A DNA stretch of 24,397 bases from a virus, in IMG/VR virus record IMGVR_UViG_3300028920_000261, positions 1 to 24,397 of that record, one strand, 5' to 3'. Positions 1 to 24,397 of this stretch are shown here, piece by piece. Within the stretch, counting starts at the first letter, position 1. Every line of letters begins with the position of its first letter. Both the position numbers and the translations under genes were made by a program. The notes under the pieces were generated by a model that had not been told where the DNA came from, ran no database searches, and was given only the letters and a program-made list of their open reading frames with translations.

Positions 1-502
1 TTTTACAAATTGGTTTTAAACCATTTATATGATTTTTATAACCAGTCTTTTGATTTACAGTATAATTTTCAACATTAACCTCTATACCATTATGTATACG
101 TTTTTGTTTTATTGGATAGTAAGAAGATGTTTTTTTGCAATATATACTTATTATTTCAAAATTTTTTAATGGCATATACTTAGATATTATACCGCCTGTT
201 GCTGTATTTTTTTTCCATATCCAGTCATATTTAAAATTTTTTAGATTACTTAATCTTAATTTACTTGAAAAAGGTTCACTACCAAATAAAGCTATTGGAG
301 TATTATCATAAATAATTTTATTAATCTCATTCCACATTTTATCTAAAGGAATGACTGAATCCAATTTACAACTTGTAATACCATAAGGAGGATCTGTTAA
401 AATTAAATTAAACTTAATATTTTTTTCAGATAAGTAATTCATTACCCCTAAACAGTCACCATGATATAAAATTCCATTTTTAGTTTTTAAATATCCCTTC
501 AT
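1..502 (-). CDS. DNA methyltransferase, DPPYG type (N6-adenine/N4-cytosine family), 3' end outside the window
   Basis: This open frame starts at ATG 502 and runs off the left edge with no stop, giving at least 167 residues. The catalytic motif DPPYG (motif IV) sits near residue 39 and is followed by an LFGSEPFSS block and a DWIWKKN block, the layout of the beta-class PF01555 methyltransferases common in phages. In that class motif IV comes first and the AdoMet-binding FxGxG motif comes near the C-terminus, so the latter would lie beyond the window. DPPY usually marks adenine-N6 methylation, so it probably modifies phage DNA against host restriction; the target site cannot be read from sequence. 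It lies 10 bases after the 66-residue zinc protein, with a weak GGAAG upstream. It contains no GGCC, unlike the tail genes. Confidence 0.88.
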   Translation of the reverse strand, partial: MKGYLKTKNGILYHGDCLGVMNYLSEKNIKFNLILTDPPYGITSCKLDSVIPLDKMWNEINKIIYDNTPIALFGSEPFSSKLRLSNLKNFKYDWIWKKNTATGGIISKYMPLKNFEIISIYCKKTSSYYPIKQKRIHNGIEVNVENYTVNQKTGYKNHINGLKPICK

Positions 503-512
503 TTAACTTCCA

Positions 513-713
513 CTATTTACGTTTTTTAAGTTTTATTTTATTAACCTTGATTCTTTTGTGTCTCTCACAAACATATATTTTATCACATGACAATTTATTT
601 TTTCTCTCAACACCTGCTTTATTTAACTCTACTTGTTCACCACAATAATAACAATTAGTATACTTTAATTTTACCTCTGTTTCATCATTGCCATTTAAAC
701 TTAAAAATCTCAT
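513..713 (-). CDS. small zinc-binding protein, 66 aa, unknown function
   Basis: A 66-residue protein with a CYYC pair at about residues 21-24, then a lone Cys near 43 and a CERH group near 49-52. This could bind one zinc ion, as in short zinc-ribbon or treble-clef proteins. The tail is strongly basic and ends KLKKRK, which suggests nucleic-acid contact. Its ATG overlaps the stop of the upstream 201-residue gene in an ATGA junction, so translation is probably coupled. It sits just before the DPPYG methyltransferase. No family is recognised. The role is inferred only from cysteines and charge. Confidence 0.7.
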   Translation of the reverse strand: MRFLSLNGNDETEVKLKYTNCYYCGEQVELNKAGVERKNKLSCDKIYVCERHKRIKVNKIKLKKRK

Positions 714-1315
714 GATATAACCCCTGTGCCTGTACCACTACCCCCCGATGGTGGACTACTACCGCCACCGCTTATTGCAACTGTACCAGTACCCTCACTT
801 AATATTGTTTCGGCCTGTCCTTCTCCAATTGCTTTAGCAAATTCAGGCCATTTATTTCCAAGTAAACCAAAACCACTACCCGATGATTCTATTGAACTGG
901 ATAAAGCATTACCGTCAACTAATATTGAACCAATTATGATTGTTCCTGTACCACTAAAAACAGGTGAATGAGTAGAATCTAAACTTGCATTACTTAATTC
1001 ATTTATAAAAGTTGATTCCAAAGCATCACATAAATCAGAAAGTTTATTTCCTTGAGTACCAAAATAAGATACGGCCTTAGAAAAAATTAAACTGGAAAGA
1101 TTACCAACTGAAAAACCTACAACCCCTACACCAACCCCAACCCCTGCACCTGCAACTAAACCAGTATCATTAGTTGTAAAACCCTTACCAACTAAATAAT
1201 TTACTGTTCCGAATCCTACAGCATCGGTAAAATCTTTTAATCTATTACCAGTAAAACCCAAACTGGATAAATTAGATTCTAAAGTTGACGACCATGAAGC
1301 ACCTGACAAGGCCAT
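710..1315 (-). CDS. glycine-rich virion-type protein with three internal repeats
   Basis: A 201-residue protein that starts ATG GCC at 1315. It is built from three related units of about 50-60 residues, at roughly residues 11-62, 72-132 and 136-184. Each unit has a core of the form G-x-x-G-N-(K/R)-x-x-x-(F/L) followed by a short helix with an Ala-Val/Ile-Gly turn, then a glycine/threonine/valine-rich strand segment such as GTGTVAISGG. No cysteine pattern, signal peptide or catalytic motif is visible. This composition suits a small structural or baseplate-associated protein, and it is the only virion-like gene inside an otherwise enzymatic cassette. It keeps a moderate number of GGCC sites, like the structural genes. 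The exact role is unknown. Confidence 0.75.
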   Translation of the reverse strand: MALSGASWSSTLESNLSSLGFTGNRLKDFTDAVGFGTVNYLVGKGFTTNDTGLVAGAGVGVGVGVVGFSVGNLSSLIFSKAVSYFGTQGNKLSDLCDALESTFINELSNASLDSTHSPVFSGTGTIIIGSILVDGNALSSSIESSGSGFGLLGNKWPEFAKAIGEGQAETILSEGTGTVAISGGGSSPPSGGSGTGTGVIS

Positions 1316-1341
1316 TTAAATTACCTTTTTTTTAATTATGT

Positions 1342-1860
1342 TTATAGTAAGGTTCCATCAAAATTTACTCTCATTAATTTTTCGTAACATTTTTTAATTA
1401 TATGGGTATCCCATAAAGCATTATGTTTACTAACTGATTTATTAATCCCTAAAAATTCTTCTCTATCAATGTCTGGATTAATGCCTCTAAATTTAAATAA
1501 TGTACATAAATCAAAAGGGATATAATAAATATTTCTAGGCAAATTGAAAGCACCGCCAAATATTTCATTGAATAAAACCCAATCATAAGATATACAATCA
1601 CCCCATATTTCCACTCTTACATAACTGGATAACCAGTTTAATAAATTTTTTCTTAATTCAGGCATTGACATTATATGTTTATGTTTTAAATTCCCTATAA
1701 CGTTTTTTATAATCCAATCATCACATTGACATTTTTTATAATCATTTAATTCTGCATAAAATCTTTGGCCTGTTTCATCTATCAAAGCAACACTAATCAA
1801 AGATGTTTGTTGGTGTAATCCAGTAAATTCCGTATCCATGAATAATTTTGTTATTTCCAT
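1342..1860 (-). CDS. DEDDh 3'-5' exoribonuclease (Rv2179c-like)
   Basis: A 172-residue protein with an RNase H-like DEDD exonuclease layout. Asp9 and Glu11 form the Exo I motif (MDTEFTG), Asp93 lies in Exo II (YDWVLF), and His146 with Asp151 form Exo III (HNALWDT), giving the DEDDh set. The early RFYAELNDY segment matches the PF16473 family founded by mycobacterial Rv2179c, which removes 3' overhang nucleotides from RNA. Length is normal for the family and all catalytic residues seem present. In a phage it could trim host or phage RNA or degrade DNA ends; which one is not shown. It is flanked by a zinc protein (11 bases upstream) and the repeat protein downstream. No strong SD is visible; ATG 1860 is kept because Met8 would remove the first strand. 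Confidence 0.85.
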   Translation of the reverse strand: MEITKLFMDTEFTGLHQQTSLISVALIDETGQRFYAELNDYKKCQCDDWIIKNVIGNLKHKHIMSMPELRKNLLNWLSSYVRVEIWGDCISYDWVLFNEIFGGAFNLPRNIYYIPFDLCTLFKFRGINPDIDREEFLGINKSVSKHNALWDTHIIKKCYEKLMRVNFDGTLL

Positions 1861-1870
1861 ATATAATATC

Positions 1871-2170
1871 TTATTTTAATGTTTCCAATTTATCCCATAA
1901 TGCTTTTAGTTCTTCACCTGCATGATTCTGTAAACATTCTTTACAAAAATCTCTTTTAATAACTTCATTGCCTATACTTAATCTAACTATATACGCCCTT
2001 GGTAAAGTGTCTTTAATCTCTGGAACAGACACTTTTTTTACTGCACCTGTAGTATCATCCTGTACCCTTGTAAAACTCATTTTAGGTTTACCATCATCAT
2101 CTAAAACAGGTTGAGTAGGAGGATTTATAAAAGTATGTTTATGACATATATCACATTTCCAATTTATCAT
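1871..2170 (-). CDS. small zinc-finger protein, 99 aa
   Basis: A 99-residue protein with two Cys pairs, CDIC at about residues 6-9 and CKEC near 76-79, separated by a long polar segment. This is a plausible single zinc site of the rubredoxin-knuckle type. The rest is polar, with a C-terminal helix. Its ATG shares one base with the stop of the TSPPY methyltransferase (TAATG), so it is probably translated by re-initiation after that enzyme. The coupling and the zinc site suggest a partner or regulator of the methyltransferase, but this is inference. No family is recognised. Confidence 0.7.
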   Translation of the reverse strand: MINWKCDICHKHTFINPPTQPVLDDDGKPKMSFTRVQDDTTGAVKKVSVPEIKDTLPRAYIVRLSIGNEVIKRDFCKECLQNHAGEELKALWDKLETLK

Positions 2171-4014
2171 TATGACCTCTTTTTAAGTTTTACTTTACGT
2201 TTTATCACTTTAACAAAAATTAATAAATTTTGATCTGATTTACTAAATTTTGAATATTTAATTTTTGCTTGGCCTGTAATGGTTGCATTAATTAATTTAA
2301 AACCTATTGACTCTATTGCATTAATCCATTTTAGTTTTAGTTTATTATCTTTTTCTGTTTGTAATGCTAATATACCATCTTTAACTAAATACTTATAAAC
2401 ATTTTTAAATACAGGTTTAGTAACTCTTTCATGATATTCATCATAATCAATACAATCTTGAATAACTTTATTATGAAAACCATTATCTTCAAATTTAAAA
2501 TATGGTGGACTTGTATAACATAAATCAAATTTTTTAACTAAGTCTGGATAAAACTTCATTGAATCACCTAAACGTAACTCTACTTTAGTTTTTTTATCTC
2601 CATATTTATTAACGGCCTTTTGTACATAAGGTAAAAGATAACCTTTCATTGCATCTTTATTTATTTCAATTCCTACATAGTTTTTTTTCATTTTTTTAGC
2701 GTGTAAAGGGCTTTCGCCCCAACCTAAAAATGGATCAATCCAACCTAGCTTACAATTAATAATTAAATCTTTATTTATTTTCCAATGGCCTGCTGTTGCA
2801 AATTTATTTTTTAAAAACATAGGAGGATGGTCTAAATTTTTTAATTTACCAATAGCATTTGGAACATTAAACCAGTTATTTATTTTATTTCCATTAGCTG
2901 ACGATTCGTGCCTTGCACTACTTGCACGACTTGCATCACTTATACAACTTGCATGACTTGCACCACTTGCACGACTTGTATCACTTGCACTACTTGCACT
3001 ACTTGCATGACTTGCACCACTTGCACGACTTGCATTACTTGCACGACTTGCATCACTTGCAATACTTGCACGACTTGCAATACTTGCAATACTTGCAATA
3101 CTTGCATGACGTGCATCACTTATACAACTTGCATTACTTGCATTACCTGCAATACTTGCACGACTTGCATAACTTATACAACTTGCACAACTTGCATGAC
3201 TTGCAATAATAACTTTAGTATTTGTAATTATACTACCATTAGTCTTATATCCATAAAGTAATTCATTATTACCTTTTAATTTACCTTCTTTTAATAATTT
3301 TTTTTCATTATTTTTATATGGATCTGTCCTTACATGAGAAATTAAATCAAACAACCATTTTCTTGATGGTATAACTTTAATGTTTAATTTTTTAACCCAT
3401 TTTTTTACAGTATACTGTTTATTTCTCTGACTAAATATTTCCTTTTTTACTTTATTTATTCCTGACTGGAAATAATCTAATAATTCTTTTTTATAAGGAT
3501 ATACTGTTGTATGTTTACAATGATCTATAATTAATTCTGCATCTTCAACTACACACTTATTATTAAAATCAATATAACCATTTTGACCTACATATTTCCA
3601 TGCATATGTGGCCCTTGAGGTACAATCTAACCAAGTACATTTACCATCTTTATAAAAAAATTGTGAATCATTCCTTCTATAGTCAATTGAATATAATCTT
3701 AATTGCCTAAGTTGTTTTACATTACCCTCTATATAACCTTTTAATTCTTTAATTAATAATTTTTTATCTTTATATTTACTTTGATTATGTCTATAAAATT
3801 CTTTTAAAATTACAGCAATTACTTTCATTCTATATGTTGGTATATCTAAATTTACACGTTTATTTTTTTGATAACCTAACATATAATTACAAGTATTCCA
3901 CCAATTCATATTAATAATATCTCTTACAATATAAGGAACACTTTCTTTATCTACTAAAAAATCTTTATCTTCAAAAAGTTTATTTAGTAATCTTGTAGAA
4001 TGTTTTATACTCAT
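2170..4014 (-). CDS. DNA methyltransferase (TSPPY) with a tripeptide-repeat insert
   Basis: A 614-residue protein in three parts. Residues 1-268 form a basic, lysine-rich region with no recognised fold, a possible target-recognition region. Residues about 270-368 are 33 consecutive x-Ala-Ser triplets. Residues about 375-614 hold a class I AdoMet methyltransferase: motif I DPFLGWG near 425, an acidic strand end YVGIEIN, a GDS motif, and catalytic motif IV YTSPPYF near 498-504, so motif I precedes motif IV. (S/T)SPPY is frequent in N4-cytosine enzymes, while D/N-PPY is more usual for N6-adenine, so m4C is somewhat favoured. The catalytic and AdoMet motifs are intact. The repeat sits between the two functional regions and keeps frame. 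The gene precedes a zinc protein with a one-base overlap. Confidence 0.88.
   Translation of the reverse strand: MSIKHSTRLLNKLFEDKDFLVDKESVPYIVRDIINMNWWNTCNYMLGYQKNKRVNLDIPTYRMKVIAVILKEFYRHNQSKYKDKKLLIKELKGYIEGNVKQLRQLRLYSIDYRRNDSQFFYKDGKCTWLDCTSRATYAWKYVGQNGYIDFNNKCVVEDAELIIDHCKHTTVYPYKKELLDYFQSGINKVKKEIFSQRNKQYTVKKWVKKLNIKVIPSRKWLFDLISHVRTDPYKNNEKKLLKEGKLKGNNELLYGYKTNGSIITNTKVIIASHASCASCISYASRASIAGNASNASCISDARHASIASIASIASRASIASDASRASNASRASGASHASSASSASDTSRASGASHASCISDASRASSARHESSANGNKINNWFNVPNAIGKLKNLDHPPMFLKNKFATAGHWKINKDLIINCKLGWIDPFLGWGESPLHAKKMKKNYVGIEINKDAMKGYLLPYVQKAVNKYGDKKTKVELRLGDSMKFYPDLVKKFDLCYTSPPYFKFEDNGFHNKVIQDCIDYDEYHERVTKPVFKNVYKYLVKDGILALQTEKDNKLKLKWINAIESIGFKLINATITGQAKIKYSKFSKSDQNLLIFVKVIKRKVKLKKRS
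2911..3207 (-). repeat. 33 x 9-bp tandem array encoding (x-Ala-Ser)n
   Basis: On the coding strand the array reads as 33 units of consensus NNT-GCA-AGT with no gap. A few units vary: GCA to ATA (three Cys-Ile-Ser units), one ACA, and AGT to GGT, CGT or AGG once each. The variable codon is always NNT: Ile 6, Arg 6, His 4, Cys 4, Asp 4, Asn 3, Ser 3, Gly 2, Tyr 1. Short runs such as Arg-Gly-His recur, which suggests expansion by block duplication. The array leaves long meaningless open frames on the plus strand. It is not a CRISPR array, since the units are only 9 bp and there are no spacers. Confidence 0.95.
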
Positions 4015-4051
4015 GATATAAAATTCCGTTTTTATATTTTATGTTTATAAA

Positions 4052-4264
4052 TTAATCGCAATAATTACATTCACCAATTAAATTTAATTTTTCATTACAA
4101 CTAGGGCATATACCTTTAAACTCATATAAGTTATCCATAAACTCATTTGTAATTTTTTCTTTAGCATTAAATGTCAGTATCAAATGTCTTTTTAATGTTT
4201 TTTCCATTAAATATTCAATTTGTTCTTCATCTAATATAAAATTAAATTTATCTTTATTATTCAT
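4052..4264 (-). CDS. small C-terminal zinc-ribbon protein, 70 aa
   Basis: A 70-residue protein with an N-terminal helical half and a C-terminal zinc ribbon made of CPSC and CNYC pairs about 12 residues apart; the protein ends two residues after the second pair. The spacing fits a compact rubredoxin-like knuckle pair. It starts at ATG 4264, seven bases after the stop of the nuclease gene, with AGG upstream. No enzyme motif is visible. It is the third small zinc protein in this cassette, each beside a DNA/RNA enzyme. It lacks GGCC sites. Confidence 0.7.
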   Translation of the reverse strand: MNNKDKFNFILDEEQIEYLMEKTLKRHLILTFNAKEKITNEFMDNLYEFKGICPSCNEKLNLIGECNYCD

Positions 4265-4271
4265 GTTTTAC

Positions 4272-4853
4272 CTACACCAATTCTTTTTCTAATAAATCGA
4301 ATAATTTAAATCTCTCATCAATTATAATTAAATTTAATGTTTCTTTTGCTAATATATGTTTTTTTTGTATATTACGGTGTGGTTTTAATTCAATCCATAT
4401 CTTTTTATGTGGTAAGTAAAAATCAGGTGTATATAAACTACCATCACTTAACTCAAATGTTTTATATTCATATTTCCATTTTACATTAATAGCGTCTAAA
4501 AACTTTGCAAAATTACATTCAAACATTGAACGCATACGATAACCTTTATAATGAACAAGAGTACCATATCTAGGTTTCCATTTATCGCTATGTGCAGTGG
4601 CATAACCATTTTGTCGTACTACATTTATCATTTTTTCTCTATATTCAGAATTTTTCCAATTATTCTTATTTCTATCTATTAATTTCTTTTTTTGGTCATC
4701 CCTAAATGTTTTATTTTTCCATAATTTTGTAAATGTTTTAGTACCAATTTTACTTTGGTTTTTATTTTGACATAATTTTGAACAGAACTTTTTATATACA
4801 TTTTTATTTCTAATAGTAGGTTCTGTTTCCTTACCACAAATCAAACATTTCAT
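4272..4853 (-). CDS. PD-(D/E)XK nuclease with N-terminal zinc finger, probable free-standing homing endonuclease
   Basis: A 193-residue protein. Residues 3-29 hold a zinc finger (CLIC then CSKLC). Residues about 35-82 are basic helices with KLWKNK and NWKNSEYREKM segments that resemble the NUMOD-type DNA-binding repeats of homing nucleases. Residues 105-160 form a nuclease core: RSMFE with Glu112, then a YTPDF motif with Asp144 and IELK with Glu155 and Lys157, which is the PD-(D/E)XK signature; a downstream helix and strand follow. Family knowledge links this architecture to mobile, free-standing phage endonucleases; a repair or resolvase role is the alternative. It sits directly after the spike gene, with AGGA from the spike's last codons as its RBS. 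It has no GGCC, unlike its tail neighbours, consistent with recent arrival. Confidence 0.75.
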   Translation of the reverse strand: MKCLICGKETEPTIRNKNVYKKFCSKLCQNKNQSKIGTKTFTKLWKNKTFRDDQKKKLIDRNKNNWKNSEYREKMINVVRQNGYATAHSDKWKPRYGTLVHYKGYRMRSMFECNFAKFLDAINVKWKYEYKTFELSDGSLYTPDFYLPHKKIWIELKPHRNIQKKHILAKETLNLIIIDERFKLFDLLEKELV

Positions 4854-4859
4854 ATTTAT

Positions 4860-7112: not shown

Positions 7113-7994
7113 CTATATAAAAATAGTAGTGGTACTATGTCTTAACTCTAAAAATTCATTTCTTAACGCATAATTTTCAGGTGTTGACTTCATTGGAATA
7201 CTTCTAGGTGTAACCGCTATTTCATTTATTTCTATCGGGTCTAATAAAATAACATCGTCACCTGCTTTTAAGTTTACTTTATCAGGTTGGGTATTTCTTA
7301 ATAAATCGCCTAATATTGCACTTCCATATTGTCTTTGTGCAATTGATTCAAAAGTATCACCTTCTTTTGCTTTTATTGTTTTATCTAAAGTATGAATCGA
7401 AAAAAACGGTATATTAATTTTACTTTTAATTTGTGATGCGATACCTGCGGCACTACCTATAATACCTGCGGCAAATTTTATTTGACTGGCCAAAGAAGTT
7501 GATGCGGCCTCTGTACCTATTAAAGTATCATCTAACTTTTGTAAAGCTATGTTTATTACTGCACCACGAATTGAACCATCATTTCTTAATTCATCATATT
7601 CATAATCTATTTGACGAATAAAACATGTAAATTGAATTTCTGTTCCATAAGTAAATAAAAATTTAGGTGGTCTTTTTAAATCCGATTTACGTTTTTTAAA
7701 ACTTTTTAAAGTTTCTATTTGTTGCTTTATATTTTTAAATGAGTTTAAAGCAAATAAACGGGCCTTAAATGAAACTATTTCACCATCACCAAATAACCAT
7801 TGATAATTCGGTTCTGACTTGTTAACAGTTGTTGACTCGCCTAAATTTGCATTACCACCCCTTTCACTATAATTTTCCGCAGGAAACTGGCCCGAAAATT
7901 GTAAATCTTCATAACCAACATCATCACCAACTAAAGACCATGTTTTATTATCTGAAAAACCAAATAACTCACCAACTACTTCTAAAAATGCCAT
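7113..7994 (-). CDS. LysM-containing baseplate protein (gp53 / Afp7-like)
   Basis: A 293-residue protein. The N-terminal 155 residues form a beta-rich domain with FGDGEIVSFKARLFA and CFIRQIDYEYDE segments that resemble tube-binding baseplate proteins of contractile injection systems. Residues about 207-252 are a LysM domain (VKAKEGDTF-like start at IKAKEGDTFESIA, then RQYG and LKAGDDVILLD). Proteins of this type clamp the tube to the hub in phages and in Afp/PVC particles; the LysM acts structurally and need not bind peptidoglycan. RBS GGAGG lies 8 bases before ATG 7994. The gene sits between the tape measure and the hub, as expected. Confidence 0.87.
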   Translation of the reverse strand: MAFLEVVGELFGFSDNKTWSLVGDDVGYEDLQFSGQFPAENYSERGGNANLGESTTVNKSEPNYQWLFGDGEIVSFKARLFALNSFKNIKQQIETLKSFKKRKSDLKRPPKFLFTYGTEIQFTCFIRQIDYEYDELRNDGSIRGAVINIALQKLDDTLIGTEAASTSLASQIKFAAGIIGSAAGIASQIKSKINIPFFSIHTLDKTIKAKEGDTFESIAQRQYGSAILGDLLRNTQPDKVNLKAGDDVILLDPIEINEIAVTPRSIPMKSTPENYALRNEFLELRHSTTTIFI

Positions 7995-8009
7995 TTGTTA
8001 AACCTCCAG

Positions 8010-10382
8010 TTAAAAACTTGCACCATTTTGCACCATCCTTCTTTTTGTTATAGGGTCGAGTAAACGGCCATTCCTTTCCGAGTTTTCAACTTTTGATTTA
8101 CTAACACTTAATAATAAATCACTTCCTTTTAACTTAAACTGACCATTAAGATTTACACTCACATTACTATTTTGTGATTGTGGAGCTAATGGAGTTATTA
8201 CATTTTTCATTGCACTGGCATTTTGTTGGGCCGATGGTGGTTGGGTAATTACATTTTGTGTTAATGATTCTTTTTGCAATTTCTGATTCTCTTGTGCAAA
8301 TTGATTACCAGTATCTTTTGCAATTTCTGTTTTATTACCTGTTCCAAATGCCATTGCCATTTTATCATCAAAAGAAAATTTTAAATCTTCTTTAATCGCA
8401 CCAACATCAAGGCCCGCAAACTCTAAGGCCTTGGCCCCTAAAGTTGAATTTACAATTGTGCTTAATATCCCATTGATAAGATTAAATGCACCTCTTATTG
8501 GTAATGTTAATACATCAAAAATTACTTTTCCTACACCTGATAAAAAACTCATAAATTTATTAAAAGGTTCGGCCAAAGCAAAATAAATCATATCACCAAC
8601 ACCAACCACTACATCCCAAAAACCTTTAAGTAAACTTTTACCAAGTAATAAAATATCATCAAAGTTACCTTGAAACATATTATATATTGCTTTACCTATA
8701 ATCATGAATTCATCTCTGAAAACATACATTATACCAATGATAGCCCATAATGGTGCTGATAACGCACCAATGGCCGTTCCAATTAAACCAAATAATCCTG
8801 ATATACCTGTTAAGATCGGGCCAACTACTATACCAAATGCTAACATACCTGCAAAAACAGGTGCTAAAGCGGCCCCCCAAGCTATAACTTTTGCAACTAT
8901 TTTACCAATTTCTTTTGCAGTCATTTGAGTATCACCAAACATAGGTTTTATAAATTCTTTAATTGATTCAAAAACATCTAATGCAGTTTTTTTTATTTCT
9001 TCAAAACCTTCTACAAAACCACTGGCAAACTCTTTCATGACTGGTATTAAATGTATAAATTGATTTTCATTATCTTTTAGACCTTTTAATAAAACATCTG
9101 TTTCTTTTGCATTAGCACTTAATAACTGGAATCCAGTTGTCATTACACTTAAAAAATCTGAGGCAATAAATACAGCATCTTTAAATGATTTTGTAAGTAA
9201 ACTACCTATTTCAATATTTAATCCTGTTACTGCACTACCTAATAATTTAAATGCACCTGCTAAATTATCGAGTTTTATTTTTGCCATTTTTCTTGTTGTA
9301 CCTGCGGCCCCTGCAATTTGTAATCTTACTGCTAATAAAAACGGTATCGTTTTTCCAACTTGTAAATCAATTTCTGTACCTGTTTTTTTTGCACCTAATT
9401 TTAATGCGTCTAAATTTTTATTTGTTATTAAAGTTGTTTTCTTCATTTGCCCTGTAAACGCACCCAATGCAGTTGTACCCCTTAAACCTAAAATTTCAGC
9501 GGCCTGTTTAACTGCCTCTAATGGATTTTTTGCTTTTGATGTTGCTATGGAAATATTGGACATTATCTCTTCCATAGGTTTTAATCTTTTTTGACCATCC
9601 ACCATCCTAAATAACGCTTTGTCCATACCATCTTTACCACCAAATAATTCTAAGGCCTTTTTTGATGGTTTACTTAATTGTAATAAAGCGTTTTTTAATG
9701 CTGTACCTGCAAGTGAACCTTTAACACCTGCGTTTGCAAGTATACCTAAACTTGATGCAGTCTCTTCTACACTTAACCCTGCTGTCCTTGCAGTTGCACC
9801 AACAAATTTCATACCCTCGGCCAATGAAGTAAAATCAGTATTTGTTAATGAAGTTGTTAATGCTAAAGCATCTGCAACACGGGCCGCCTCTTTTGCTTCT
9901 AACCCAAATGCACCTAATTGATTAGCAACTACATCGGCCGATTCTTTTAAATCTACACCTGCGGCCGAAGCCGCATTTAAAACCGCAGGTAAAGCCGCAA
10001 TAGATTGTTTTGAAGTGAACCCTGCTTGTGCTAATGATTCGGCCGCTTCACCTGCTTGTACGGCCGTAAATTCTGTAGTTGCACCTAATTGTTTTGTTAT
10101 TGCATTTAAGGCCCTCATTTCATCTTTAGTTGCAAGCATTTTAGATTGCACCGATGACATTTGTGCTTCAAAATTCATGGCCTCATTAGTTGCATAAGCT
10201 AAACCGCCTGCTATTGGTGCAGTTGCCAACGTTGCACCCCTTAAACCTACACCGATTTTACTTATACTTTCATTTGCTTTTTGAATCGAGTTTTTTAAAT
10301 TTTTAAAACCCCTCTGGGCCTTTGATAAACCTTGAGTTGCATTATCTTTAAATTGTAATAAAGCATTAAATTTGAAGGTCAT
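8010..10382 (-). CDS. tail tape measure protein
   Basis: A 790-residue alanine-rich protein. Residues about 60-260 match the TP901-type tape measure core (helices with LGATTEFTAVQAGEAAESLA and GLSVEETASSLGILANAGV). Residues about 490-560 are a long hydrophobic stretch with likely membrane-spanning helices, a usual tape-measure feature linked to DNA entry. The C-terminus is polar and glutamine-rich. By the rule of about 0.15 nm per residue the tail would be near 118 nm long. RBS AAGG precedes ATG 10382. It follows the chaperone frames, as in most tailed phages. It has the densest GGCC content of the window, mostly at Ala codons. Confidence 0.95.
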   Translation of the reverse strand: MTFKFNALLQFKDNATQGLSKAQRGFKNLKNSIQKANESISKIGVGLRGATLATAPIAGGLAYATNEAMNFEAQMSSVQSKMLATKDEMRALNAITKQLGATTEFTAVQAGEAAESLAQAGFTSKQSIAALPAVLNAASAAGVDLKESADVVANQLGAFGLEAKEAARVADALALTTSLTNTDFTSLAEGMKFVGATARTAGLSVEETASSLGILANAGVKGSLAGTALKNALLQLSKPSKKALELFGGKDGMDKALFRMVDGQKRLKPMEEIMSNISIATSKAKNPLEAVKQAAEILGLRGTTALGAFTGQMKKTTLITNKNLDALKLGAKKTGTEIDLQVGKTIPFLLAVRLQIAGAAGTTRKMAKIKLDNLAGAFKLLGSAVTGLNIEIGSLLTKSFKDAVFIASDFLSVMTTGFQLLSANAKETDVLLKGLKDNENQFIHLIPVMKEFASGFVEGFEEIKKTALDVFESIKEFIKPMFGDTQMTAKEIGKIVAKVIAWGAALAPVFAGMLAFGIVVGPILTGISGLFGLIGTAIGALSAPLWAIIGIMYVFRDEFMIIGKAIYNMFQGNFDDILLLGKSLLKGFWDVVVGVGDMIYFALAEPFNKFMSFLSGVGKVIFDVLTLPIRGAFNLINGILSTIVNSTLGAKALEFAGLDVGAIKEDLKFSFDDKMAMAFGTGNKTEIAKDTGNQFAQENQKLQKESLTQNVITQPPSAQQNASAMKNVITPLAPQSQNSNVSVNLNGQFKLKGSDLLLSVSKSKVENSERNGRLLDPITKRRMVQNGASF

Positions 10383-10391: not shown

Positions 10392-10634
10392 TTAAACTTT
10401 ACCTATAAACTTTCTTTTACTCGCAGGCCTTTTATTATGGGCCGATTGAGTTTGTTTTTTTATAGCGTTATTTTCATCAACCTTTTGTTTACTTAATCTT
10501 TTTAAAAACCATAAAAACTTTTTACGTTTCATGTTTTCAGTTTGGTTCAAAGTAATACCGCCCTTGGTATGATACAACAAATTAAATTGGCCCTCCCATA
10601 TATCCTTAATAGGTGTTATAGGGAGGAACTCCCG
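10392..10634 (-). CDS. frameshift extension of the tail assembly chaperone (T-like part)
   Basis: This frame is open from the slippery site at 10640-10634 to the stop at 10392 and adds 80 residues to the chaperone after a -1 shift, giving a fusion of about 352 residues. The added part begins REFLPITPIKDIW, contains LLYHTKGGITL and a basic helix KRKKFLWFLKRL, and ends with a lysine-rich tail. The Gly-Gly-Ile-Thr-Leu then helix pattern is like the extensions of other phage tail chaperones. A free 62-residue product could start at TTG 10580, but no good SD precedes it and the upstream part of the frame codes sensibly, so a frameshift origin is preferred. It lies 10 bases before the tape measure gene. 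Confidence 0.75.
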   Translation of the reverse strand, partial: REFLPITPIKDIWEGQFNLLYHTKGGITLNQTENMKRKKFLWFLKRLSKQKVDENNAIKKQTQSAHNKRPASKRKFIGKV

Positions 10635-11489: not shown

Positions 11490-11516
11490 AAAAGTTAGGC
11501 CAATTAAGGCCCAACT
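11490..11516 (-). terminator. weak rho-independent terminator after the tail tube gene
   Basis: On the coding strand AGTTGGGCC pairs with GGCCTAACT (nine pairs, one G-U) across a TTAATT loop, followed by a short TTT run. It begins four bases after the tube stop codon. The U-tract is short, so it likely attenuates rather than stops transcription, which would keep tube mRNA above chaperone and tape measure mRNA. It could also protect the 3' end of the tube mRNA. Confidence 0.55.
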
Positions 11517-11519
11517 AAT

Positions 11520-11997: not shown

Positions 11998-14649
11998 TTA
12001 TGCTAAACTTTCTGTTACCCCTAGTTTACCAATTGTAATAATAAACCTTTCAACGGTTCCAACAATTCTTAAACTTAATTCTGCGTTTAAGTCACCATTT
12101 GCCTCTGTTAAAGGTGTATTATTTTCATCATCAATCTTTAGATTGATAGCATCTTGTAAACTATCACCAACGATTGCACTTTTGGCCAATTCAGGTGTAA
12201 AGTATTGAATGAAACTTGATTTTAATTGTTCCCTTGTTTCTTTGTTATTTAATGCAAAGATAACATAATCAAAGTTTTCCAATAATACATTTTCAACATG
12301 GGATAGGTATTCTCTTTGATGTTTAAATTTAAATGCAGGGTCTAAACTTAATGTTCTATCACCCCAAATAACAACGTTACCTTCTTTAAATTTTAAAACA
12401 TTAATACCAATTGGATTTAAAAATTCTTCATCTTTTTGATTTTCAAAACCGTCTGGTAAAGCTAAAGCATTAGATATAATTGCATCAATACCTGCGGCCG
12501 CTTTATGATAACCATCATAATTTCTTGCATATTTGGCCTCAAGTCCATGTATTGCACCAGTTGCAGTTATAAGTTTTAAACCACCACCACTTTTTGAAAC
12601 TTTTATGTATGACGGCCATGCTATAACTGCAAAATCATTTCGGCCTAAAGTATCATTTACATATTCTTCCGCATCTAACTCTTCACTTATGTTATAAGGT
12701 ATCTCATATCTGTATTGCCAGTTTTGAGATTCTGCAAATGCAACACCTGCTTTTTGAACGGCCGTGCTTGTAACGCTTGGTGTTGCAAGTTTTACTAACC
12801 CTAAATTTTGACCTCTAAGATTTTTTAAAACTGAACTACTAGTATCATAGGCCGTTTCATAATCTAAATCATCAATGTTTGCAATACCATCATAACCACC
12901 TTCTAATTCTTGGATATATTCAACCCTGAATTTATCACCACTAGAAGCATCTGTAGTCATGTCATTACCAGTTTTAACTGTTATCGAATCAACTGTATTA
13001 GATTGTATTAAAAATTTGTGTCGTGGTTTATCAACGTTTGGATACACCATACCATCAACAAGGCCATTTACTTCAAATGGAGACATTTCAATAATGATTG
13101 TATCACCAACATCAAAAGTCTTAGTAGAGTCACCACTAATATCTTTTAATGTAAATCCGAATCCAAAATCATTTGGTGAAGTAAATGCTTGGCCAGTTGT
13201 TACTGTTAAACCAGTTGCAAAGGGCATTTTTGCACTTACATAATCAAAAACTTGATCTACACCGCCCGACAAGTTAGCACCACCAAAAGTTGGTTCATTA
13301 CCACCGCCTGCACTGGAAAGTAAAATTGCATTTCCGTCAAGGCCTGCATTATAAGCATAGGCTTCAATTGTACTTGCACTTGATTTTTCTGCAAAAATTA
13401 TTTTATAAAGTAAGGCGTGATCTGTAGAATTCAGATTACTTAAAAAAGTGATTAAATTATCTAAAGTTGCCTCTGCTGTACCACCAATTAAAACTTCATT
13501 GGTTGGGTCTGCAACAACTGTTTTAAATGTAATTGTAAAACCATTTATAACAATTGTGTCATTATCATCGGGTAAAGCACCAAAAGTTAATGTTTCAGTT
13601 GCTCGACTACCTGCAACACTGCATGTAAGTGTTACGGCATCTTTTACAACTTCGGCCCCTAAAGTTAAATTTTCCAACTCTGATACTGCAAAATTTACAC
13701 TGTTATTAAATAGATCATAAATTTTTGCACTTAATACAGTTGCAGTTAATGATTCGGACACACTTGAAATATTAGCAGGTCTTTTATCTGCACTTGGTAA
13801 ACCAGTTTCTAAATCCTCAACACTAATTAAATAATCTGACATTGAATCGGTGTTGATAATATCTACATAATAATTATCTGCATCTGGGTCACTACTTAAA
13901 TCTTCAAATGTTTTTTGTAATGTTGCTACACCACCTTCAATTAGATAAACGTCAACACTCCATTCAGTGCTTGGATTAGCTAATCCATTTCTAAATTTAA
14001 CACCAACTGATTTACCATCATTTGACATTTCAACTGAAAATAATGTATCTGCACTACCATCAATTTCTTGAACTAAATCAACATCACTAGCAAAAGTTAA
14101 AACCCCTGCACTTGTATTAGAAATAACTTGAAAAGATTTTCCTGCAACGGCTTTAAGTTTAACTAAAGCACCAACTAATTCATCATCCTCTAAATCACTT
14201 GGTACATTTGTTAATGTTAAAGTTGTGGCCGTAACGCTTGCATATTCATCAATCAATGGTTGTATTTTTTTACCTGCCCATCGGCCTGCGTTACCTGCAT
14301 AAACTTTAACAGAATCACTTTTTTGATCTAATCTATTTTTTAAAGTCAGACTTGCTTTTTTTTCTGAACCATCTGTTAAACGATTAAACCAAATTTCACC
14401 TGCACCACCTGACAACCTATAAAAATTTAAGGCCGCATCTGGTAATTGAGATTCAGAAATTATATTACCACCCTTAAATAAAAATTCAGTCCTGTTAGTT
14501 GCCCTAAAAAGTTTTCCAATAGGTCCTTTTTCCATTATTCCAGTGTATGCAGTTACACCAAGGGCCGCAGGTGTAATAGCTTTTTCACTTTCTTTTTCAA
14601 TTATTACTGTTCCTGCCCCTCTAGTTGGGCCATAGCGTCTTTGTGCCAT
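11998..14649 (-). CDS. tail sheath protein with inserted domains
   Basis: An 883-residue contractile sheath. The N-terminus (YGPTRGAGTVIIEKES) and the first 110 residues match the sheath N-terminal domain, and the last 250 residues, with INVLKFKEGNVVIWGDRTLS and a final VERFIITIGKLG, match the conserved C-terminal core that makes the handshake contacts between rings. Typical sheaths have 400-650 residues; the surplus lies in the middle. Residues about 338-466 form a self-contained beta domain with an ATLDNLITFL helix ending LSGGVDQ, and residues about 500-580 hold a VGD-type beta domain. These should decorate the outside of the tail. RBS GGAGG lies 9 bases before ATG 14649. Confidence 0.94.
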   Translation of the reverse strand: MAQRRYGPTRGAGTVIIEKESEKAITPAALGVTAYTGIMEKGPIGKLFRATNRTEFLFKGGNIISESQLPDAALNFYRLSGGAGEIWFNRLTDGSEKKASLTLKNRLDQKSDSVKVYAGNAGRWAGKKIQPLIDEYASVTATTLTLTNVPSDLEDDELVGALVKLKAVAGKSFQVISNTSAGVLTFASDVDLVQEIDGSADTLFSVEMSNDGKSVGVKFRNGLANPSTEWSVDVYLIEGGVATLQKTFEDLSSDPDADNYYVDIINTDSMSDYLISVEDLETGLPSADKRPANISSVSESLTATVLSAKIYDLFNNSVNFAVSELENLTLGAEVVKDAVTLTCSVAGSRATETLTFGALPDDNDTIVINGFTITFKTVVADPTNEVLIGGTAEATLDNLITFLSNLNSTDHALLYKIIFAEKSSASTIEAYAYNAGLDGNAILLSSAGGGNEPTFGGANLSGGVDQVFDYVSAKMPFATGLTVTTGQAFTSPNDFGFGFTLKDISGDSTKTFDVGDTIIIEMSPFEVNGLVDGMVYPNVDKPRHKFLIQSNTVDSITVKTGNDMTTDASSGDKFRVEYIQELEGGYDGIANIDDLDYETAYDTSSSVLKNLRGQNLGLVKLATPSVTSTAVQKAGVAFAESQNWQYRYEIPYNISEELDAEEYVNDTLGRNDFAVIAWPSYIKVSKSGGGLKLITATGAIHGLEAKYARNYDGYHKAAAGIDAIISNALALPDGFENQKDEEFLNPIGINVLKFKEGNVVIWGDRTLSLDPAFKFKHQREYLSHVENVLLENFDYVIFALNNKETREQLKSSFIQYFTPELAKSAIVGDSLQDAINLKIDDENNTPLTEANGDLNAELSLRIVGTVERFIITIGKLGVTESLA

Positions 14650-18007: not shown

Positions 18008-18937
18008 TTAATAAAAAACTTTTGAACTGGATTCCGAACTAGTTGTAAAATCTAATGATAATTTTCCGTGTGTATAGTATCTTAAATAAACATTACCATT
18101 AACTTCAATTTTTAAATCATTATTTACTAATCTAATTAAATCGGGTCTAGTCCAACATTTAGATTTAGAACTAGATGAACCATGTAAAGTATCACTACTA
18201 CCATATATATCTAAATCAAACATGTTGGCCGATATATAAGTAAAGTCAAAAACACTTTGGCCATTTTGATCTGAATCAGATATTTGGCATAACCCAGCTA
18301 ATCGTATTTGATCTTTAAATGCTTGTATATCATCGCCTCTTTGTTTCCATTGAGTATTAGATTCATACTGTAAAGCACCACCGCCACCATAGGGGCCATA
18401 AGAAAAACTTTCTAATAAATATATATCATCTGTATTTAAATTAGATTTTAATAAATTTGGGTTCCATGTTGTATTTGCATAACTTGTATCATTTTCAGTT
18501 GATAAAACATGATCGGGATTCCAAGCATTAACAAAACATTTCATATCTTTTGAATGTATATAATCTAATTTCCAATTAAAAACTTTACGACCATTTGTAG
18601 AAACACTACCATAATCATAACCGCTTTCATCCATGAAAATACCATGTACTGATAAATTTGTTTCCCACTCATTAACTTTAGTTTTCCAAGTTGTTTCAAC
18701 TAAGTTAGTTGAAACATAACCATATATCTCACATGCAGGATTTAAATTTTTTATTCTTGGTACAATAACACTTGTATTAGACCAGTCTCCATGACCAGTA
18801 TTTTGAATACCATCACCTAAAACTAAAACATCATACTGTGATAATTCTTGTGCAACTTTTTCATTATCCCAACCGTTAGTTGCACTATTAAAAGAATTCA
18901 ACCAACCATAATATACTAATAAATTTTTTGTTCTCAT
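18008..18937 (-). CDS. TIM-barrel glycosidase-like virion protein (GH114/spherulin-4-like)
   Basis: A 309-residue protein starting with LLVYYGW, the first strand of a TIM barrel. Strand ends DVLVLGDG and EIYGYVST follow, then GIFMDESGYDYG (residues 99-110) with acidic D103/E104, DMKCFVNAW, and YLLESF with E176. This series matches the GH114/spherulin-4-type barrels, in which an acidic pair at strand ends is catalytic. The C-terminal 40 residues (LKIEVNGNVYLRYY) form a beta tail. In a phage it is likely a fibre-linked enzyme for a surface polysaccharide or glycan; no signal peptide is visible. It lies amid fibre-like genes, between the helical protein and the adaptor. Catalytic activity is inferred. 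Confidence 0.72.
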   Translation of the reverse strand: MRTKNLLVYYGWLNSFNSATNGWDNEKVAQELSQYDVLVLGDGIQNTGHGDWSNTSVIVPRIKNLNPACEIYGYVSTNLVETTWKTKVNEWETNLSVHGIFMDESGYDYGSVSTNGRKVFNWKLDYIHSKDMKCFVNAWNPDHVLSTENDTSYANTTWNPNLLKSNLNTDDIYLLESFSYGPYGGGGALQYESNTQWKQRGDDIQAFKDQIRLAGLCQISDSDQNGQSVFDFTYISANMFDLDIYGSSDTLHGSSSSKSKCWTRPDLIRLVNNDLKIEVNGNVYLRYYTHGKLSLDFTTSSESSSKVFY

Positions 18938-19566: not shown

Positions 19567-19567
19567 T

Positions 19568-21215: not shown

Positions 21216-21231
21216 AACATAACCTTTTTAT

Positions 21232-21261
21232 AAAAAAAGAGTGAGATATAAAATCCCACCC
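21232..21261 (-). terminator. rho-independent terminator after the 437-residue virion gene
   Basis: On the coding strand GGGTGGGAT pairs with ATCTCACTC (nine pairs including two G-U) across a five-base loop, followed by seven T. It begins ten bases after the stop codon of the upstream gene. It should cut most transcripts and leave a fraction to read into the fibre and tail genes, a common way to keep a major virion protein in excess. Confidence 0.85.
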
Positions 21262-21271
21262 TTATAATTAT

Positions 21272-22585
21272 TTAAGCATTACTTAATGGTAATCTATAAT
21301 CAACTATCAATTCCTCCGAACTTCTAGGAGGCTTGTTAAGTCTATTATTATCATTTGGCAAAATCCATAGTGATAACCACTTGTAACCAGTGTTTGAAAT
21401 ATTATTTTCAAAAACTTGTTCTATCTCGCAATAGTCACCTGTACCATCGTCAAGACCGCCTGCTAATGGTGTTGAAACTAATGCACTTTGTACACCTGTA
21501 CCATCTCCACCGTATTGTGCAAGCACCATTCTTTTAGCATCTGCATCTGCATTAATAGCATCTACTACATCTTGTGCAGTAGAAATAATTGCACTACCAC
21601 CATCAGTTTCCAATGAAACATCAATTGTATGGCCACTGGAAAAGTTTTTAGTAACTGTAACTGATAAAGGACTAGTAGGTGCGGCAGGGTCAGTTAATAC
21701 TAATTTAGTTTTATTTCCATTAGTACCAAGTATTAATGATGTTAAAATAATTTGTGCGTTACCTGCACCATTAGTTAATGTTGCAAGCGTTCCACATGTT
21801 CCAAGTCTTAAACGTCTACCATCTAATAATAATTTACTTGTACCTTGTAAAAATAAATTATCAGTTTCAAAAACTGTATGGTCACAATCACCAACATCAA
21901 TAAACTCATTTTCAACTGGTCGATCTATAAAATCAATTTCTTCTTTGTTTCGTTTAATTGCCTGTGACATGGTGATACCTTTAATACAGGTATGGCATCC
22001 AGTCTTTGCAGTTAAATCAATGTTGCTATCTAAAACAATAGTTGATGCATTGTTTGTATCATCTGCGTTTTCATTTACTGCAACAACGTTGGCCTCACCT
22101 GCAACACCATCATCACAAATAATAGTTGCAACATCACCAACCCTCCAAAAACTTGTATCAGGTACATCATAAGTTGCCTGTCCTACAATTGGAGTATCTA
22201 ATTCAAAACCTGATATATTAACACAAACATCAAAAGGATTTTTTCCATTTGTGTAACTTCTATAGAGTCGGTCTATAGCTTCTTGACCATCATCAATATT
22301 TTTTGCAACTGCATACCAACCAGTTGCACCTGTAGGTAAAGCTGTAGACGTGTCTACACTTGTTGTAAAATTTAAAGCTGTATGTTTTTCAACGGCTTCA
22401 ACTACTAAATCAGTTGCCAAAACACCTAAAGGGCAACACTCACCATTTTTTAAAGCAACTATATCAACTAAGTCACCTACTTTAAAATAAGATGAAAAGT
22501 CAATCGTTTGGCGTTTGTTATCTTCACTTGAAGTAATCAATTCAACTGGACAAAATTGAGTCCTTATTAAATTAGTTTGGCCCAT
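21272..22585 (-). CDS. abundant virion/decoration-type protein with nested beta domains
   Basis: A 437-residue protein with a very strong RBS (GGGAGGG five bases before ATG 22585) and a terminator behind it. Two tandem domains begin with the same turn: FKVGDLVDIVALKNG (near residue 34) and WRVGDVATIICDDG (near 147). Residues 237-262 plus 384-433 match the small 113-residue protein upstream (FLQGTSKLLLDGRRL and RLNKPPRSSEELIVDY), and residues about 263-383 are a beta/alpha insert with TAQDVVDAIN and LAGGLDD. Cysteines are frequent (10 or more), unusual for the window. It could be a head fibre, decoration protein or major coat-associated protein; HK97-fold capsid identity is not evident. Confidence 0.7.
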   Translation of the reverse strand: MGQTNLIRTQFCPVELITSSEDNKRQTIDFSSYFKVGDLVDIVALKNGECCPLGVLATDLVVEAVEKHTALNFTTSVDTSTALPTGATGWYAVAKNIDDGQEAIDRLYRSYTNGKNPFDVCVNISGFELDTPIVGQATYDVPDTSFWRVGDVATIICDDGVAGEANVVAVNENADDTNNASTIVLDSNIDLTAKTGCHTCIKGITMSQAIKRNKEEIDFIDRPVENEFIDVGDCDHTVFETDNLFLQGTSKLLLDGRRLRLGTCGTLATLTNGAGNAQIILTSLILGTNGNKTKLVLTDPAAPTSPLSVTVTKNFSSGHTIDVSLETDGGSAIISTAQDVVDAINADADAKRMVLAQYGGDGTGVQSALVSTPLAGGLDDGTGDYCEIEQVFENNISNTGYKWLSLWILPNDNNRLNKPPRSSEELIVDYRLPLSNA

Positions 22586-22590
22586 AAAAA

Positions 22591-22597
22591 CCCTCCC
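22591..22597 (-). promoter_or_regulatory. strong RBS GGGAGGG of the 437-residue virion gene
   Basis: GGGAGGG followed by five T and ATG at 22585, the strongest purine-rich SD block in this region. With the terminator behind the gene it signals high expression. Confidence 0.75.
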
Positions 22598-22598
22598 T

Positions 22599-22940
22599 TT
22601 ATATTATTGGATTACACCCTCCTAAACCTGATTCTATCATATATGAAATCAATAAACTTTCCATACATTTAGGTGGTGCATTTAATCTATACGATTTACT
22701 TGGATCAATTAATATTGTAAAACCACTATTGTCAGGATAAACTTCAAAATCTTTATCAATATCCAATTGATTGCCATTTAAATGTATACCGCTAAGAAAG
22801 ACATTTAAAGAACCCTCTAAAAATGTTTCATTATTTGGTAATACATAATCTAAGTTTACACCATTTTTCAAACCTATTGGTACAACATTAGTTTTATATT
22901 TATCCGAGCTATCTTGTCTCTTTTGATCGAAGTGAGACAT
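22599..22940 (-). CDS. small virion-type beta protein, 113 aa
   Basis: A 113-residue protein whose residues about 35-105 form one beta domain: FLEGSLNVFLSGIHLNG, then DFEVYPDNSGFTILID, then RLNAPPKCMESLLISY. The same pattern, interrupted by an insert, closes the larger downstream protein, so the two share a domain. Comparable domains occur on phage capsid fibres and fibre-attachment proteins. It begins one base after the preceding stop with GGGGG upstream. No catalytic motif is seen. Confidence 0.7.
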   Translation of the reverse strand: MSHFDQKRQDSSDKYKTNVVPIGLKNGVNLDYVLPNNETFLEGSLNVFLSGIHLNGNQLDIDKDFEVYPDNSGFTILIDPSKSYRLNAPPKCMESLLISYMIESGLGGCNPII

Positions 22941-22941
22941 A

Positions 22942-23238
22942 TTATAACCCCCATGCCCATACTCTTACTTGAACATCATTAATTGATATACGTTTAAACC
23001 ATATACGACCTTCACTTAAACCATCCATAACTAAAGGGCCATCGGTACAAAATAATTCACCATCTAAAAAAGGTTTTCTAAATGAAAATGCAATACTATC
23101 AGTAGTGCTATCATTGGATATGATTACATGCGTTGCCTGAAAACCAAAATCAATATCATGTTCATTTGTAAAAATATCCGAGCTAACAACTAATCTTTGA
23201 TAGAAAAAATTTCTTCCAGTTGGTACTACTGTAACCAC
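22942..23238 (-). CDS. small beta protein ending in RVWAW, GTG start
   Basis: A 98-residue protein from GTG 23238, with GGGG 5 bases before it. A beta-sandwich-like order is seen: HVIISNDS, SIAFSFRKP, a DGEL turn, an IWFK strand and the final VQVRVWAWGL. Its paralogue is the next gene upstream (89 aa), which ends GTFRVWAY with the same turns. Such small proteins often decorate phage heads or bind fibres. It overlaps nothing; a 2-base gap follows. Confidence 0.65.
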   Translation of the reverse strand: MVTVVPTGRNFFYQRLVVSSDIFTNEHDIDFGFQATHVIISNDSTTDSIAFSFRKPFLDGELFCTDGPLVMDGLSEGRIWFKRISINDVQVRVWAWGL

Positions 23239-23254
23239 TGTTACCCCGATTTAG

Positions 23255-23524
23255 CTAATAGGCCCATACTCTAAATGTTCCTGTACCTTTTACAGCTATT
23301 TTTGATGTTTCTAAATCTGGAAATAAAAGATTTTCACCATCTTTTATTGTACCATCTTCATTTGAACCACTAGGGCCAACCAAACTATAAACCATGTCAC
23401 CACCACTAACGGCCAACCTAATATTTTTTGAACCTGATTCTAAATTCCATGCATTAGTACCATAACCTGCTGTTAAAGTACCTTCCCTATAAAAATATTG
23501 TGTTCTTGTTGCTTCAACGGCCAT
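23255..23524 (-). CDS. small beta protein ending in RVWAY, paralogue of its neighbour
   Basis: An 89-residue protein from ATG 23524; AAAGG eight bases upstream selects this ATG over the in-frame one at 23554, which lies inside the upstream gene. It shows strands NIRLAVSGGDMVYSLVG, a DGTI turn, SKIAVKGTG and the terminal FRVWAY. Its architecture parallels the 98-residue protein downstream, so a tandem duplication is likely. The location among head genes suggests a surface decoration role; this is inference. Confidence 0.65.
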   Translation of the reverse strand: MAVEATRTQYFYREGTLTAGYGTNAWNLESGSKNIRLAVSGGDMVYSLVGPSGSNEDGTIKDGENLLFPDLETSKIAVKGTGTFRVWAY

Positions 23525-23525
23525 A

Positions 23526-23912
23526 TTAATAACCTTTGTAATAAATGTTATCAAACATCTGTTTACCTATTTTTACCATGTCAATTCTACATAATATAGG
23601 TGGAGGTGGATTATTATAAGTGTATACTAATAACGATAATTGTATATTATCAGCATGACATATAATTTTTTCACCTAGTATTTTTTGTTCATTATCTTTA
23701 TGTTTATAAACTAACTCGGCATAAAATTTAATTTTTCTAAACTTTTTTGGACACGGCATTGTATGAAATTTTTTATTATGTAAAATCCCTATACCGCTTA
23801 TGTTATTTTGAAACTCTTTAACGTTGGCCCATTCATGCCATTGCTTAACATCATCATCTTTTGTTAAGTCAAATTGTAAAGTTGTTCCATCTTTAAAATT
23901 AATTTTTATCAA
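23526..23912 (-). CDS. hypothetical protein, 128 aa, TTG start
   Basis: A 128-residue protein taken from TTG 23912, because AAAAGGG lies seven bases before it while an in-frame TTG at 23939 has no SD. The N-terminal strand pair IKINFKDGTTLQFDL resembles an anti-parallel sheet, followed by a helix with HEWANVKEFQ, a CPKKFRKIKFYAEL strand and a proline run (PPPP). No family or catalytic motif is recognised. The stop is one base before the next start. Its place in the small-gene row implies a head-associated or unknown virion role. Confidence 0.6.
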   Translation of the reverse strand: MIKINFKDGTTLQFDLTKDDDVKQWHEWANVKEFQNNISGIGILHNKKFHTMPCPKKFRKIKFYAELVYKHKDNEQKILGEKIICHADNIQLSLLVYTYNNPPPPILCRIDMVKIGKQMFDNIYYKGY

Positions 23913-23919
23913 TGAAAAA

Positions 23920-23926
23920 CCCTTTT
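23920..23926 (-). promoter_or_regulatory. RBS AAAAGGG that favours the TTG start at 23912
   Basis: AAAAGGG lies seven bases before TTG 23912. The alternative TTG at 23939 has only CTTTAA upstream, so the shorter protein is preferred. Confidence 0.6.
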
Positions 23927-23970
23927 GTACTAATGCCAATTAAAGGTTTATAACCAAATTATTTTAAAAT

Positions 23971-24174
23971 TTAATCTTCTTTTTTTGCTAACACCCTAAC
24001 TTTTTTCATGATATATGAATATTTTTCTTTTAAATGTTCATATTCATCATGAGTTATAGTCAAAGGTTTTTTTGGTAAAAGGTGTAACGAACCTTTACAT
24101 GATCGTTTACAGCTTTCTTTAAAACCTTCAACATATATAGGAGCGTCACCATAGTAATTTATTAAGAGTTTCAT
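23971..24174 (-). CDS. hypothetical small protein, 67 aa
   Basis: A 67-residue basic protein with two cysteines in a CKRSCKG segment, a PKKPLTITHDEYEHLK turn-helix and a final MKKVRVLAKKED stretch. AAGG lies six bases before ATG 24174. The pattern of a short strand, then L-T-I-T-x-x-E helix, is seen in small phage head-assembly proteins, and the neighbouring 68-residue gene has a similar shape. No firm family. It is supported by SD, spacing and coding character. Confidence 0.55.
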   Translation of the reverse strand: MKLLINYYGDAPIYVEGFKESCKRSCKGSLHLLPKKPLTITHDEYEHLKEKYSYIMKKVRVLAKKED

Positions 24175-24182
24175 AACGATCC

Positions 24183-24389
24183 TTATTTTCTCAATTTTTT
24201 AACTTTTTTTTTAACAGATTTTTTTTTACTTGATGTTTCTTTTAATAAGGTCACTGAAAAATAATTATTACTCATCAACTCATCTACTATTCCACCTTTA
24301 ACAACAACTGGAACATCTTTTTTAAATTTAGTTTTTCTAATGGTGTATGATAGTGCCTTTCTTAAAATAACCTTAGCTGTTTTACTCAT
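24183..24389 (-). CDS. hypothetical small lysine-rich protein, 68 aa
   Basis: A 68-residue protein from ATG 24389, close to the right edge, so its RBS region is mostly cut. It has a central VPVVVKGGIVDELM segment and a strand FSVTLL, then a highly basic tail (KKKSVKKKVKKLRK), which suggests nucleic-acid or scaffold contact. It resembles the next gene in plan: short strands, one helix, a basic end. No family is recognised. Confidence 0.5.
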   Translation of the reverse strand: MSKTAKVILRKALSYTIRKTKFKKDVPVVVKGGIVDELMSNNYFSVTLLKETSSKKKSVKKKVKKLRK

Positions 24390-24397
24390 TTGTGCTT

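Follow-up and report, generated by a model that had tools for sequence, protein, structure and literature searches.

GGCC is favoured as a word in the window

The question raised by the DNA studied here is why an AT-rich phage genome should abound in one short palindrome, and whether the force behind this acts on the word or on codons. The stretch, hereafter the window, is IMG/VR virus record IMGVR_UViG_3300028920_000261 (24,397 bases, possibly a fragment). An earlier note had counted by hand about 105 GGCC sites and estimated that about 12 would be expected; the exact count over the whole window (1..24397) is 105, with the first site at 812 and the last at 23826, and base composition predicts 11.5. 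The base fractions on which that estimate was based, about 13% G and 17% C, were slightly off (11.6% and 18.7%, respectively), leaving the conclusion unaffected. Under a maximal-order (second-order) Markov model, the check that the note had proposed, 40.5 sites are expected (z 13.7), and GGCC ranks first among the 256 tetramers. No other word is thus as over-represented here as this palindrome, a property known from the highly iterated palindromes (HIPs) discussed below. General clustering of G and C can be discarded as the cause, as the note had argued, given that CCGG, GCGC and CGCG are each present in 0 copies.

Because GGC and GCC are themselves inflated, and the Markov model takes in their counts, it was complemented by a second null, in which synonymous codons were permuted across genes in 300 shuffles while every protein and every codon count was kept. 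This codon-aware null predicts 17.7 coding GGCC sites, with a maximum of 26 in the 300 trials, versus 102 observed, i.e. an excess of about sixfold over the prediction from proteins and codon usage. A codon or dipeptide bias, which according to the note might by itself have predicted about 100 sites, in fact accounts for about 18 and is rejected. All three codon phases are raised (observed/expected 29/5.0, 11/5.4 and 60/7.1), and the density is 4.2 sites per kb in non-coding DNA, which amounts to 721 bases only, versus 4.3 in coding DNA. Intergenic sites lie outside called genes at 10589..10592 and, as a pair starting at 11498 and 11508, within 11498..11511. When the window and its three GGCC-rich relatives were pooled, 40 non-coding sites were counted versus about 5 expected by composition, so that in the phages, where this was tested, the excess is independent of frame and common to coding and non-coding DNA, as for a HIP-like word. 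Furthermore, 67% of the alanines following a G-ending codon in the window are encoded by GCC, compared with 2-4% of those following a codon that ends in A or T although its amino acid also has a G-ending codon. The word itself, and not a codon, is therefore favoured in the window, as indicated by the codon phases, the non-coding DNA, the codon-aware null and the choice of alanine codons after G. The note's view of a force on the DNA word is borne out.

Genes of the window

The window carries a myophage tail module with tape measure, sheath and baseplate genes. The tail sheath gene (11998..14649, minus strand; PHROG 23 tail sheath, E 6e-26) served as the starting point for finding relatives, both enriched and not enriched, as well as a Bdellovibrionota assembly. 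Among named phages no near relative of the window was found, only one weak sheath match, to a Leptolyngbya phage. A 309-aa protein of the tail region (18008-18937) resembles by eye a glycoside-hydrolase-type barrel and has no match in the relatives compared.

Two genes of the window were considered as causes. A putative N6/N4 DNA methyltransferase (2170..4014, minus strand; PF01555, E 1e-8) has no homologue in G001, G002, G003, L006 or L007, and is probably not responsible since enriched relatives lack it. Likewise, a phage endonuclease-like gene (4272..4853, minus strand), with weak matches to PHROG endonucleases and Holliday junction resolvases, is not common to the GGCC-rich relatives, and was rejected because it has no homologue in them. 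Within the putative methyltransferase gene, positions 2913-3261 form a low-complexity repeat (SASRASNASCIS-like) in which other frames are open too.

Phage relatives with and without the excess

Sheath and capsid searches of IMG/VR yielded about 100 contigs, many of them distant. Only three records have the excess in common with the window, all of them its relatives: G002 (109 kb; 336 coding GGCC observed, 110 expected), G003 (99 kb; 292 and 98) and G385 (35 kb; 131 GGCC in total, 100 in coding DNA with 22 expected). The four enriched records hold 3.2 to 4.3 sites per kb although their G+C content spans 27 to 37%. The note had also considered that the count might be normal elsewhere in the genome; in the whole-genome relatives G002 and G003 the enrichment runs evenly along the length. 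The ratio had a median of 0.75 and a maximum of 1.51 over 129 other viral contigs for which enough sites were expected; control contigs with few expected sites reached up to 1.74, and in 2,228 palindrome-by-contig tests values above 2.1 were obtained only for GGCC in these phages.

Not all close relatives have the excess. G001 (106 kb), whose relationship to the window is about as close, has a near-normal count (72/52), and a close capsid relative of 7.7 kb (L186, IMGVR_UViG_3300022697_000151) has 0 GGCC versus 13.5 expected, which suggests that its host carries a GGCC-cutting enzyme. The existence of close relatives that are without the excess or avoid the word goes beyond the earlier note, as does the enrichment in a probable host class described below. 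G385 starts at the capsid gene, which in relatives adjoins the gene at the end of the window; the ends of the two do not overlap, and given this gene order G385 may be a neighbouring fragment of the window's lineage. Two of its genes, one encoding the large terminase, contain insertions that look intein-like by eye (L218:4002-6053 and 7890-9833).

The note had envisaged a methylation, packaging or recognition word. A binding, packaging or regulatory signal of the phage itself would fit the high density throughout the genome, in coding and non-coding DNA. However, the gaps between sites in the window are Poisson-like and fit an exponential, so that regular spacing was rejected, and the sites turn over between relatives. 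For G002 and G003, in which 79 of the 136 G002 proteins match G003 (50 of the 136 match G001), 45 GGCC sites are common to orthologous genes versus 24.5 expected; for the window and G002 the numbers are 7 versus 5.2. This conservation is weak, so conserved positions were dismissed as an explanation, and relatives with a homologous tail module are without the excess. It is the density of GGCC in the phages that matters, then, and not particular places, as follows from the turnover and the Poisson-like gaps. We regard a phage signal word as very improbable, and the packaging or fixed-signal part of the note's proposal falls with it; its methylation part is made plausible by a core C5 methyltransferase in the probable host class.

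A further possibility is that so many restriction sites are avoided that GGCC is simply what remains. Restriction-like words are indeed nearly fully avoided in the window (CCGG, GCGC and GCWGC). Avoidance is near complete for GATC, GGWCC, CTGAAG, TTCGAA and GATATC in G002 and for GATC, CCGG, GGWCC, TTTAAA, CTTAAG and AACGTT in G003; GTGCAC and others are strongly avoided as well. Avoidance of GGWCC extends to the window as well as to G002 and G003, while neither G001 nor L186 avoids this word. Nevertheless, a G-ending codon is followed by GCA in 23 cases in the window, so the words neighbouring GGCC have not evidently been emptied, and the bacterial class has a GGCC excess too. Such displacement is accordingly a most improbable source of the excess. 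The avoidance of many other sites by these same phages is as in restriction-site avoidance generally (PMC6286503), in which selection likewise acts on short palindromes, but for GGCC the sign is opposite.

A GGCC-rich bacterial class as probable host

When genomes were searched with an alignment of the sheath, a 56% match was obtained within a Bdellovibrio-assigned metagenome-assembled genome (MAG) of the Bdellovibrionota, outside the GGCC-rich class introduced below; the GGCC ratio of the sheath relative (1.29) is like that of this MAG (1.34). With the exception of this MAG, no full-length sheath relative was found in 369 genomes of the phylum, and none in the class. Spacer-like matches were only short, weak and of the kind typical of chance in AT-rich DNA, several of them, from different genomes, falling on the same stretch, and were rejected for identifying the host. 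The TnpB-like RNA-guided nuclease gene of G385 (L219:10867-12009; about 40% to plasmid TnpB proteins) was likewise uninformative as to the host, its matches being wide at about that level.

The main finding came from sampling genomes of this phylum. One class of the phylum, represented by 129 genomes (GC 34-45% in all but one stretch sampled), is GGCC-rich when samples of mostly 20 kb per genome are compared with the same codon-aware null as for the phages. The median ratio is 2.0 in the 27 class genomes sampled versus 1.05 in 33 genomes counted as being without the class's C5 methyltransferase (Mann-Whitney p 1e-8), one of which (G110) belongs to the class and is GGCC-rich, the enzyme having gone undetected in its assembly. 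In 20 of the 27, GGCC ranks first or second among the words, again as for a HIP-like palindrome; in one example (G040) 338 sites were counted with 135 expected. When genomes were grouped by class, GGCC was the best of all tetramers at separating the class from the rest of the phylum, and the second best was AGCC, the outer transition neighbour of GGCC, which is depleted in the class. The class is probably Bacteriovoracia, judging from the G+C content and from one genome (G059) that we take to resemble Halobacteriovorax marinus.

A C5 cytosine methyltransferase of about 370-425 aa is encoded by 124 of the 129 class genomes, whereas the remainder of the phylum yielded no more than four matches, all distant. 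The gene occupies conserved chromosomal positions and has no recurring nuclease-like neighbour (16 genomes), and hence behaves as a solitary core gene. Some enzyme-bearing members of the class have neutral ratios in the sampled stretch (G045, 1.06; G130, 1.05), and no difference in the recognition region of the enzyme separated neutral from GGCC-rich class genomes. The class forms a single clade, so that common ancestry alone could account for the association of enzyme and word. No link between Bdellovibrio-like bacteria and GGCC methylation was found in the literature searched.

The phages carry a word signature resembling that of the class: the GGCC excess is present in all four records, and the AGCC/GGCT depletion in the window, G385 and, in part, G002, where only CAGCC and GAGCC contribute to the depletion of AGCC, which might thus reflect no more than the usual avoidance of sites. 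On the basis of composition, and of one relative in a MAG from the same phylum outside the class, these phages are probably hosted by the GGCC-rich class.

Direction of the base changes in bacteria and phages

In the class, the alanine codons suggest how the word has been gained. After G, 55% are GCC, 10% GCT and 22% GCA; after C or T, 24% are GCC, 41% GCT and 24% GCA. The sum of GCC and GCT is 65% in both contexts, so the class excess comes from an exchange between T and C at the outer base, from GGCT to GGCC (odds ratio 9.2, versus 1.07 for genomes from outside the class). At the inner positions the shift is about 2-fold with respect to controls. Such a pattern resembles the outcome of directed repair or of altered mutation at GGCT/AGCC and not that of selection, since selection for the word would have lowered GCA and GCG too. 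At the outer position, moreover, the class shows the base pattern of very short patch repair, with a depleted T-containing neighbour and transitions only. Of the proteins known to carry out this kind of repair, Vsr (PF03852) was found in 5 of the 129 class genomes and DUF559 (PF04480) also in 5, and both repair enzymes were rejected as agents on account of this rarity.

The pattern in the phages is broader. The odds ratio for C:A at the outer base is 27 for the window with G385, 9 for G002 and 7.5 for G003, and inner positions are also strongly enriched. Since all positions contribute, and transversions as well as transitions, the phage pattern looks like what selection for the whole word would give, and it is on this fit of pattern that we speak of selection.

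These observations bear on whether bias alone could suffice, that is, whether T:G-specific mismatch repair of the very short patch type, or methyl-directed mismatch repair, would turn GGCT into GGCC in host and phage with no selection involved. The outer-base shift of the class at constant C+T and the depletion of AGCC/GGCT in the class and some phages speak for it, as does the repair ratchet model of Elhai 2015 (PMC4390886). It does not account for the displaced transversion neighbours and strongly enriched inner positions of the phages, however, and the rarity of Vsr and DUF559 also counts against it. Pure bias is thus possible but unlikely.

The explanation we favour, at roughly even chances, is that GGCC may be a HIP-like, probably methylated genome word of this Bdellovibrionota class, matched by the phages that would replicate there. 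The account would start from a class that, unlike the rest of its phylum, is GGCC-enriched and possesses a near-universal, apparently solitary C5 methyltransferase at a conserved place. This enzyme would methylate GGCC, and a repair or mutation bias, of which the pattern is seen in the bacteria, would convert GGCT/AGCC into GGCC. The phages go beyond this bias at every position, by transversions and transitions, and regardless of their G+C content have a host-like density of 3.2-4.3 sites per kb, probably having been selected to resemble host DNA at the presumably methylated GGCC; two of them also carry C5 methyltransferases of their own with a common recognition-like module. The window and the three other records would have the word because, as we propose, they replicate in the class. 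A bolder version, which we hold to be unlikely, is that the class recognizes its own DNA by how densely methylated GGCC occurs in it, and that the phages evolve hundreds of extra sites to attain host density. If so, identity would be signalled by the abundance of a word, not by its absence.

Comparison with known systems

In cyanobacteria, highly iterated palindromes comprise HIP1 (GCGATCGC) and the alternatives GGCGCC, rCCGGy and GCsGC, at densities of 0.5-2.5 per kb, which have been proposed to arise through a repair ratchet (Elhai 2015, PMC4390886). As in those genomes, one palindrome stands out and a solitary methyltransferase is associated with it (PMC4390886), although here the specificity of the enzyme is presumed. 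In contrast, the word is GGCC, which is neither GCGATCGC nor a described alternative HIP, and the bacteria are Bdellovibrionota; hence the term HIP-like and not HIP1. Also unlike HIPs, the phages here have the word and exceed it, at about 3-4 per kb versus 0.5-2.5 (PMC4390886).

A second parallel is Dcm/Vsr very short patch repair of Escherichia coli, or that by VsrA of Caulobacter (PMC12907096): the class likewise gains a site of cytosine-methylation type by transition and loses its T-containing neighbour. It differs in that few class genomes have Vsr or DUF559 genes, that the outer C is affected, and that the phage pattern extends beyond transitions.

There is still no agreement on what the over-represented palindromes of cyanobacteria, linked with solitary methyltransferases, are for. 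The question of function becomes testable now that such a word is seen in a second, unrelated class of bacteria and in phages, some close relatives of which are without the excess or avoid the word. The results further suggest that the host of an unclassified phage can be traced from a short word in which the phage DNA is enriched.

Cytosine methyltransferases of the phages

The word could alternatively be driven by the phages, in that their own C5 methyltransferase would methylate GGCC by means of a recognition-like module, so that carrying the word would be safe or even useful for them; any likeness to the bacterial class would then be coincidental. In agreement with this, a C5 cytosine methyltransferase is encoded by the GGCC-rich long records G002 and G003 and not by G001. 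None of 11 further records contains one above the family cut-off, and among seven additional records one does (G391), the only other searched record with the enzyme. The G002 and G003 enzymes have one recognition-like module in common, and searches of 80 relatives of the enzyme, of named phages, of plasmids and of the rest of IMG/VR did not turn it up again. On the other hand, G002 and G003 are sisters, so that their agreement comes close to one event, and the 60 kb of the window and G385 (both incomplete) contain no such gene. As a rule, no GGCC excess was detected in 65 contigs carrying relatives of the phage enzyme, and the C5 methyltransferase family was rejected as a general cause for this reason. 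The bacterial class would moreover be left unexplained. Given the carriers without excess and the sister relationship, the evidence for a phage enzyme as driver is weak, and we consider this origin of the word quite unlikely.

Multispecific C5 methyltransferases are known from SPbeta-type phages of Bacillus, where their described role is to protect existing sites and not to accumulate sites. The G002 and G003 enzymes likewise appear, from their sequences, to hold more than one recognition module, but the phages that encode them accumulate GGCC.

The methyltransferase gene of G003 (L009:1480-3288) is interrupted between the motifs QTVP and DGYT by about 200 codons. The insert holds an HNH-like reading frame in another frame, and looks like an intron or other inserted element.
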